From Candidatus Bipolaricaulota bacterium (GTDB lineage Bacteria; Bipolaricaulota; Bipolaricaulia; M55B111), in the NCBI GenBank assembly GCA_018335015.1, contig JAGXKX010000007.1:1-34211 (forward strand): a stretch of DNA of 34,211 nt, read 5' to 3'. The stretch's first letter is position 1. Each line of letters starts with the position of its first letter. Of this stretch, positions 963-22,006 are shown in pieces. Under the pieces are notes generated by a model. The model saw only the letters and a list, made by a program, of their open reading frames with translations. It was not told the DNA's origin and did no database searches. Made by a program: the position numbers and the translations under genes.

Positions 963-1162
963 CTCAGTTCTTTCACCGCCTCGTACATCATTGTTTTGTT
1001 TTCCTATGCCTCCTGCCTCTTACCTGGCAACTGATTTAACCTTAAAATTCTACCAGTAGATGAAATCCCGGCAGCCAGGTAAGAGGTAGGAGGCTTGAAC
1101 TAAAAAATATAGTGATCCTAGTAATCTCCACCTTGCTTCCGAATAGCCCTGAAAGAACTGAG
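963..1162 (+). repeat. Structured ~200-bp repeat element, copy 1
   Basis: The element is bounded by perfect 13-bp inverted repeats, CTCAGTTCTTTCA at 963-975 and its complement at 1150-1162. Inside, 1008-1028 and 1074-1094 form a 21-bp stem with one G/T wobble. The 45-base loop begins AACTGATTTAACC and ends GAAATCCCGGCA; GATTT near its start can pair with AAATC near its end. The left outer arm is 45 bases and the right 68. Equivalent copies lie at 10285, 14236 and 21245. There is no coding capacity. It resembles a non-autonomous transposable element with an internal hairpin; a structured RNA or a bidirectional terminator are alternatives. Confidence 0.85.
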
Positions 1163-6083: not shown

Positions 6084-6190
6084 CTCAGTTCTTTCACAAG
6101 TTTCGTACCTAATTGTTATCAATTTTGCTCTCCCCCCTCTCTGGACTGTTTTAACCGCACAAGCTCAGCAGTAAGCTGCGGAGTGCCTGT
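6084..6190 (+). repeat. Decayed partial copy of the structured repeat element
   Basis: A perfect terminal repeat CTCAGTTCTTTCA at 6084-6096 is followed by bases resembling the copy-1 left arm (TCGTAC-T-ATTGTT). At the right spacing comes a degenerate core left half near 6127-6155 (GCTCTCCCCCCT, then CTGTTTTAACC against CTGATTTAACC). The right arm and right terminal repeat cannot be recognised, so the right boundary is approximate. It sits in the liv promoter region. Confidence 0.5.
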
Positions 6191-10174: not shown

Positions 10175-10284
10175 GTCAATTATCCGCACCAAGGTGCGAA
10201 AGTTATATCAACAGCCGACAGACTCCTTCCCGAGTAAGCTTCGGACCCAGGCACTTACCCAGCGCCTGGTTTACAATCGTAGAT

Positions 10285-10485
10285 CCCAGATCTTTCACCA
10301 ACGGCGGATTTAGCTATCCGGCCTGAATAACTGCTCTCGCTCCTTACCTGGCAACTGATTTATCCTTTTAAAATCCAGTAGTAGAGGAAATCCGTCAGCC
10401 AGGTAAGGAGGGAGAGCTAGTAGTAAAAAAAGGAAGTCAATATTCAAAATTGGTTCGCTTTCATACGATGGTGAAAACACCTTAG
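10285..10485 (+). repeat. Structured ~200-bp repeat element, copy 2
   Basis: A 20-bp stem (10333-10352 with 10398-10417, one mismatch) surrounds the conserved loop starting AACTGATTTATCC and ending GAAATCCGTCA. Outer arms are 48 and 68 bases, the same polarity as copy 1. The terminal repeats have diverged: CCCAGATCTTTCA on the left and GGTGAAAACACCTTAG on the right. Both outer arms closely match copy 4 (for example GCTTTCATACGATGGTGAAAA against GCTTTCATACAATGGTGAAAA), which confirms the boundaries and defines a subfamily distinct from copies 1 and 3. Confidence 0.8.
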
Positions 10486-10574
10486 TAGATATTACTTCGA
10501 GGCCACAGTGCCCAGTCAATGCCGGTGGGTTTTCTCGGCAGGTTATATAACCAGTCCAGGCAAAAATTAAAAAA

Positions 10575-14196: not shown

Positions 14197-14455
14197 TCCC
14201 CCTGCCCTTTACAATAGCAGACTGATTTAACTTTACTCAGTTCTTTCACACTATTAGGGCGAGGGGGTCTCATATTGCGATAACTATATTTTCAGTTCAA
14301 GCCTCATGCCCCTTACCTGGCAACTGATTTAACCTTAAAATCTTACCAGTAGACGAAATCCCGGCAGCCAGGTAAGGGGCATGAGGCACATGAGAACAAA
14401 ATAATTGTGTACAACGTTGCTGAAAGAACTGAGCAGGAAATCCATTGCCCAAGTA
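14197..14455 (+). repeat. Older repeat copy interrupted by copy 3 (two half-cores)
   Basis: Just before copy 3, 14197-14235 reads like a core left half (TGCCCTTTACA, then GACTGATTTAACTTTA). Just after copy 3, 14434-14455 resembles the core right half (GGAAATCCATTGCCCA against GGAAATCCGTCAGCCA in copy 2). The simplest reading is that copy 3 inserted into the loop of an older, decayed copy. The halves are short, so confidence is moderate to low. Confidence 0.4.
14236..14433 (-). repeat. Structured ~200-bp repeat element, copy 3 (arms inverted relative to core)
   Basis: Perfect 13-bp terminal inverted repeats (CTCAGTTCTTTCA, 14236-14248; complement, 14421-14433) surround a perfect 21-bp stem (14301-14321 with 14367-14387). 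The core reads on the plus strand exactly as in copy 1 (AACTGATTTAACCTTAAAA in the loop), but the outer arms are swapped. The left arm (52 bases between terminal repeat and stem) matches the reverse complement of copy 1's right arm (AACTATATTTTCAGTTCAA against CACTATATTTTTTAGTTCAA). The right arm matches copy 1's left arm. It lies between the convergent metK and thrS genes and could act as a two-way terminator. Confidence 0.85.
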
Positions 14456-21191: not shown

Positions 21192-21233
21192 AGTTTGAGC
21201 ACGCGATCGGAATTTTCTCGGCTCGGGAAACCC
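21192..21233 (+). repeat. Direct repeat, copy A of a 42-base sequence
   Basis: The sequence starts AGTTTGAGCACGCGATCGG and ends GCTCGGGAAACCC. It recurs at 21627-21669 with a single extra G. Copy A lies just outside the terminal repeat of structured element copy 4. A diverged inverted relative is seen at 21460-21480. Confidence 0.85.
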
Positions 21234-21509
21234 GGATTTCCTGTCTTAAATTTTTCACCATTGTATGAAAGCTAAACCTATTATATGAAGGTTGGATTTA
21301 TTCTTTTACTAGGAGCTCTTTGCCCCTTAGCTGGCTACCGGATAATTTAATATTTTACGTGAAAATACTCACTTTGGAGACCGTTCGATAAAACCAGGAT
21401 CAATTTCCGATCTCGGCCTCGCTCTCCACCCTTTCTTTTTTGGAACCGACAAAAAGGCTCCGGGCCGAGAAATTTCCAGCGAAGCGGCGCATATGTCTGA
21501 CCGAGCCTG

Positions 21510-21539
21510 GAATTACCTGGAGCTTGCTTCAGGTAATTC
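21510..21539. other. Strong hairpin GAATTACCTG / CAGGTAATTC
   Basis: A perfect 10-bp stem, extendable through AGC/GCT with one G/T wobble, lies in the middle of the insert in copy 4. The TTACCTG/CAGGTAA part echoes the TTACCTGGC stem of the surrounding element family, so it may derive from a related core. It is not followed by a T tract. Confidence 0.6.
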
Positions 21540-21626
21540 AAGGAGAGGGATATTTCCATAACCGAATGAGATAAATCTTTATGGGTAATACTCCCTGTAA
21601 ATAAGAACCACCGTCGTGAAGGCACT

Positions 21627-21669
21627 AGTTTGAGCACGCGAGTCGGAATTTTCTCGGCTCGGGAAACCC
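21627..21669 (+). repeat. Direct repeat, copy B of a 42-base sequence
   Basis: Matches 21192-21233 except for one inserted G after CACGCGA. It lies inside the insert of copy 4, 435 bases from copy A. Confidence 0.85.
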
Positions 21670-22006
21670 AGAGGTTGAGAGTAAGGACCGACAAAAGGGT
21701 GGAATCGTGCCCGCTCACCCTCGAAGTTCAGCTTCGACTGAAAGGGTTTTTCCTGAACGGTTTCCAGAGTTATTTAGGTAATTTATCCAGCAAACCCTGC
21801 AGTATGGGCTACCGGGATTTCGCATATGTTAAACCTTTTAGAAGTTAAACCAGTTGCCAGATAAGGGCCAAAGAGCAGTAGTCCAGACTAGAGGGGTAAA
21901 TCCTCCGTCGATGAAAGAACTTAGCCAAACTAACCGGAGTTTAAGAACCTTCCCGTTTGTCTTAAACTGAGAGAGATAAACCGATAATTTCGACCTGGAG
22001 GAACTT

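Follow-up and report, generated by a model that had tools for sequence, protein, structure and literature searches.

What are the structured elements of about 200 bp that recur in a 34,211-nucleotide stretch of DNA (the window) from a hypersaline Candidatus Bipolaricaulota metagenome-assembled genome (MAG), and how did they come to be repeated? The original prediction placed a common architecture at four positions, and all four were confirmed as copies. The copies were found to be related over their entire length, not merely across a short hairpin, and to have a common unit order of terminal inverted repeat (TIR), short arm (about 46 bases), 21-bp stem, 45-nt loop, stem, long arm (about 69 bases) and TIR. 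The measured stem (21 bp) and loop (45 nt) agreed with the 20-21 bp and 40-45 bases proposed, and the core TTACCTGGCAACTGATTTA occurred four times compared to zero occurrences expected. The proposed 13-bp TIRs were detected as exact 13-mers in copies 1 and 3 but were degenerate in copies 2 and 4; across the four elements, the TIRs measure 13-16 bp. The division by arm sequence into two subfamilies was correct, with arms of type A in copies 1 and 3 and of type B in copies 2 and 4. Unequal arms of about 46 and 68 bases had also been described, and these sizes were right; however, the order of the arms relative to the hairpin is reversed in copy 3 (65/46). This inversion of the hairpin relative to the arms, which had been overlooked, is the most interesting point of the elements.

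Copy 1 (positions 963-1162, plus strand) has type A arms of 45 and 68 bases in the 'normal' orientation. Its left TIR, CTCAGTTCTTTCA (963-975, plus strand), and right TIR (1150-1162, minus strand) were without mismatch, and its 21-bp stem is formed on the plus strand by a 5′ arm (1008-1028) and a 3′ arm (1074-1094) that enclose the conserved 45-nt loop (1029-1073). When folded as single-stranded DNA, copy 1 had a z-score of -6.4. Copy 2 (10285-10485, plus strand, type B) is more diverged and is flanked by a perfect 5-bp direct repeat, TAGAT, at 10280-10284 and 10486-10490; its central hairpin (10332-10418, plus strand) scored 86.5 bits with a covariance model. Copy 3 (14236-14433, plus strand, type A) has TIRs at 14236-14248 and 14421-14433 and a central hairpin at 14301-14387 (plus strand, 113.3 bits), and is without an intact target-site duplication (TSD). 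Copy 4 (21245-21924) has type B arms and a minus-strand hairpin; its loop is split by about 480 bp of sequence from another repeat, and the part of its hairpin recognized by the model (21807-21858, minus strand) scored 29.9 bits. A probable decayed fifth (half) copy with an exact TIR, short-arm-like sequence and hairpin-like remnants was found at 6084-6180 (plus strand); its 3′ limit is uncertain, and it was not scored by the covariance model.

Other repeats were observed around these copies. Copy 1 is nested within another dispersed structured repeat, GTCAAGAACCCCGCCCCAAGGGRCGGGGCTTGTAGAAAA...GGTCTTTTACAAA (about 921-1195), intact paralogues of which are numerous in relatives. A second repeat family, GTTTGAGCACGCGAGTCGGAATTTTCTCGGCTCGGGAAACCC, was located at 21193-21240 and 21630-21673 of the window, beside and inside copy 4. 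Inserts related to GTTTGAGCACGCGAGTCGGAATTTTCTCGGCTCGGGAAACCC also break the hairpins of other copies (C98:1-242 of the source genome, L277 and L281), a pattern that would be expected if such inserts favored the palindrome.

Four copies in the window had been taken to suggest many genome-wide, and a covariance-model search of the source genome (1.96 Mb, 152 contigs) bore this out with at least 150 hairpin matches. Among 100 Bipolaricaulota genomes, the same model found matches in five (source included), all of one genus, and none outside that genus. The exact core was otherwise found only in two MAGs of Bipolaricaulota, whose isolate names refer to Great Salt Lake (GSL) and Tobar. The TIR pattern, with up to 2 mismatches allowed, gave 172 matches compared to 5 for a reversed control. 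Copies with two ends were mostly 196-207 bp, and nearly all had the central 87-base palindromic hairpin. A simple ORF caller was applied to the 395 kb around the elements and, as an indicative count only, placed 44 of 95 copies between convergent genes, 35 between tandem genes and 16 between divergent genes; four were within ORFs. No strand preference was detected between tandem gene pairs (16 vs 19).

Evidence for mobility was provided by the flanks. Seventy-six two-ended copies were available, 75 of them with enough flanking sequence, and an exact 5-bp TSD was found in 29 of the 75 compared to 0.6% expected from mismatched flank pairs. Per-position identity of the TSD was 0.63-0.82, and the excess was confined to 5 bp, with no contribution from other lengths or end offsets. 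One copy, at C69 of the source genome, interrupts the loop of a second copy and has TACTA duplicated at its ends; in many uninterrupted loops, TACTA occurs once. The insertion site of copy 1 is unoccupied in intact paralogues of its host repeat. The comparison of empty and filled sites that had been proposed was thus successful for unoccupied related sites but not for a clean cross-species junction: L053 is without the elements of source-genome C151, but the junction was not cleanly aligned, so the unoccupied related sites were relied upon. Mobility is confirmed by these sites together with the 5-bp TSDs. The family was found to consist of a short TIR-bounded unit with a TSD of fixed length, no coding capacity, and dispersed, mostly intergenic copies with unoccupied sites. 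Based on these sequence features, it is assigned to the miniature inverted-repeat transposable elements (MITEs), here non-coding, non-autonomous DNA transposons of about 200 bp that belong to one hypersaline Bipolaricaulota genus. Insertion with a 5-bp TSD would be catalyzed in trans by a putative DDE-type transposase acting at TIRs of about 15 bp, CTCAG(T/A)TCTTTCACC.

The window had been described as free of transposase genes, in agreement with its ORF list, which holds ordinary metabolic and transport genes, with Pfam analysis of 10 of its ORFs, none of which is a transposase, and with the finding that no ORF of at least 80 amino acids is confined to copies 1 to 3. A full-length, transposase-bearing element between TIRs, which the original prediction had suggested should be sought, was not found: no transposase gene bounded by the family TIRs was detected in the 395 kb around the elements or at hairpin-less TIRs of these fragmentary draft assemblies, and when TIR pairs separated by 300-6000 bp were screened for a shared TSD, a single accidental pair was obtained. 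The TIR at contig C67 borders a different, very abundant structured repeat, and the hairpin-less TIRs or arms at C98, C62, C111 and C54 are decayed, truncated or interrupted copies. Genes of PF01609 (IS4/IS5-type) and PF05598 (DUF772) were absent from the genus. The rve domain (PF00665) was found in two relatives only, with no partner carrying the family TIRs, and IS1380-type genes (PF13701) were present only as remnants without these TIRs. Broken PF13701 genes were observed at L199 (C76:11557-12219 of the source genome) and L198:1447-2067, with no family TIRs nearby, and the PF13701 gene of G042 is truncated beside an IS110-like transposase gene. The family also differs from a TIME (Tn3-derived MITE) in its ends: the 5-bp TSD fits, but TIR similarity extends over only about 16 bp compared to about 38 bp for Tn3-type repeats.

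Orientation of the hairpin was assigned by the conserved strand of its loop. By this approach, the hairpin was found to run from short to long arm in 50 copies and in reverse in 25, and on a tree built from the arms, orientation had to change a minimum of 18 times, compared to 21 with shuffled labels; orientation is near-random. In the genomes from Great Salt Lake and Tobar, orthologous sites were found that hold the same insertion with collinear flanks and arms and with the hairpin inverted. Such inversion was detected in 7 of 14 distinct orthologous comparisons, where a site seen twice in one relative is counted once and C41:4088 is counted per species (two); with C41:4088 counted once, the proportion is 6 of 13. 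In the clearest case, C5:9962-10048 of the source genome and L104 of the Great Salt Lake genome, the arms were identical at 87 of 94 and 89 of 96 positions, and the hairpin was identical at 80 of 89 positions when turned compared to 60 of 81 unturned (loop 44/45), with three paired (compensated) stem changes accompanying the inversion. As read from these alignments, the orthologous sites show that the hairpin can invert in place after insertion.

Conservation was unevenly distributed along the element. Between pairs of copies with long arms less than 55% identical, identity was 0.92 for the inner stem, 0.80 for the loop, 0.78-0.80 for the TIRs, 0.55 for the outer stem and 0.44-0.46 for the arms; no other part is as well conserved as the inner stem, TTACCTGGC/GCCAGGTAA. 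Despite divergence of the outer stem, pairing was held at 84-97% per stem position, and covariation was strong, with double-sided changes in 13 of the 21 pairs (86 cells of this kind compared to 22 in shuffles). By contrast, at orthologous sites 84 stem pairs were kept in one species only compared to 21 that were compensated, and the loop was 86% identical compared to 79% for the arms. The hairpin is thus conserved between diverged copies and decays in place between species, which, as a pattern of sequence conservation, suggests that constraint acts on copies that propagate and not on residents, and that the hairpin may have a function. A sister element at C83:1061-1222 of the source genome (L039:630-791) has the same TIRs, a perfect 5-bp TSD (TACTT), a different interior and no hairpin; movement therefore does not strictly depend on the hairpin. 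It is unlikely that the hairpin is a functional module, conserved independently of the arms, that is turned by a dedicated protein of the genus and that most copies require for spreading; the family would then be a MITE with an invertible structural part of its own. Relatives of the sister element (L279, L275) were observed in another species of the genus, G041, in which the hairpin model found only a single match.

Taken together, the explanation we consider probable is a MITE family with its hairpin under constraint and inverted in place, most likely by template switching. A DNA polymerase that switched templates between the 21-bp inverted repeats during replication would invert the hairpin, and the same switching would homogenize the stem arms to give perfect stems of differing sequence. 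We infer that this is the likeliest cause of flipping, as frequent inversion, near-random orientation and perfect but unlike stems would be explained by one process with no special enzyme. The spacer is inverted with collinear flanks, as expected of template switching at inverted repeats. Template switching has been reported to homogenize arms and reversibly invert spacers, although the spacers reported to invert in coding genes of yeast measure 2-5 bp (PMC8604942) and the spacer here is 45 bp; multibase compensatory stem changes have likewise been reported (PMC8794818). Stems mostly decay in place, so homogenization is not strong everywhere. Frequent, independent, in-place inversion and the conservation of the inner stem could also be the work of a dedicated recombinase that flips the hairpin as a DNA inversion site, perhaps switching neighbor genes. 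This is unlikely, since template switching already accounts for both the inversion and the stem homogenization (PMC8604942) and since the location of 44 of 95 copies between convergent genes and the lack of strand preference (16 vs 19) do not suggest promoter control. We consider it quite unlikely that the inversions are palindrome assembly errors or reflect hairpin exchange between copies by recombination. All of the genomes are draft MAGs, and most inverted loops were no closer to their orthologue than to random copies (loop identity 0.86 between orthologues compared to 0.82 between random copies), which leaves room for exchange at all sites save C5:9962 (44/45); a chimeric element at L054:4975-5210, in which a left arm of type B is joined to a right arm of type A, suggests that recombination between copies occurs. 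However, the 87-base hairpin would fit within an ordinary short read, the inversions were seen against two independently assembled relatives, and C5:9962 compared to L104 retains site-specific loop letters (44/45) with arms 93% identical.

Two further readings concern the nature of the unit itself. A covarying 21-bp stem with a conserved loop might be read as a structured RNA (small or cis-acting) that happens to be dispersed. This is very unlikely: the hairpin occurs in both orientations relative to the arms and to neighboring genes, its stems decay in place, the TIRs and TSDs mark the unit as DNA, and Rfam yielded no family but only generic hairpin matches far below the gathering score. Movement of a REP/REPIN-like element by a hairpin-recognizing Y1 (HUH) transposase is highly improbable, even though Y1 transposase genes were detected in three genomes of the genus, with one match in the source genome. 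The ends of the element have 15-bp TIRs and 5-bp TSDs, which to our knowledge are not features of Y1 transposition. Moreover, the hairpin is of 87 bases with a 45-base loop, compared to 20-40 bp for REP sequences (PMC3733652).

A mobile unit bounded by TIRs with its hairpin probably turned by template switching can be compared to several known systems. The bcr1 repeat of the Bacillus cereus group is a mobile, structured, high-copy intergenic repeat of about 150 bp; it is likened to the family by description only, and we know of no invertible hairpin described for it. Prokaryotic MITEs (PMC10969869) are similarly short and non-coding, with TIRs, TSDs, many intergenic copies and nesting, but here a conserved central hairpin that inverts in place is found in nearly all copies. 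Template-switch systems (PMC8604942, PMC8794818) share spacer inversion and may share homogenized or compensated stem arms; by contrast, the present case is a bacterial MITE with a 45-bp spacer, at least 150 parallel copies in one genome and half of orthologous sites turned. Small inversions at chloroplast hairpin loops (PMC6824564, PMC2903610) also involve a palindrome-flanked segment that inverts repeatedly, but at single plastid loci and not in a dispersed mobile family. REP/REPIN sequences (PMC3733652) are likewise high-copy intergenic palindromes, but are of 20-40 bp, Y1-associated and without such a TIR/TSD unit, compared to a unit of about 200 bp here. The family had been called unrecognized, and neither it nor the inversion record was found in Rfam or in the open-licence papers searched; description elsewhere, for example in insertion-sequence databases, is possible. 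The kind of element (MITE) is already known, while the family, its genus-restricted burst and the record of in-place inversion appear new; among MITE families, this one stands out for its scale and its inversion record. With at least 150 parallel palindromes with readable flanks and arms in one bacterial genome, hairpin inversion and stem homogenization by template switching could be measured in a natural setting, with no engineered reporter required. The family also shows that covariation in the stems of repeats does not have to reflect selection for RNA structure, a pitfall often met when RNA families are sought. A third structured repeat, CAGCAGTCAATCGAG...CTCGATTGACTGCTG then CCGATTCCTCCCCAGGGCAAGCCCTGGGGCTTCCTCGGCT, was also observed at L175:1-167 (C67 of the source genome) and L179:1500-1665, with about 28-53 matches per genome in all five genomes of the genus.
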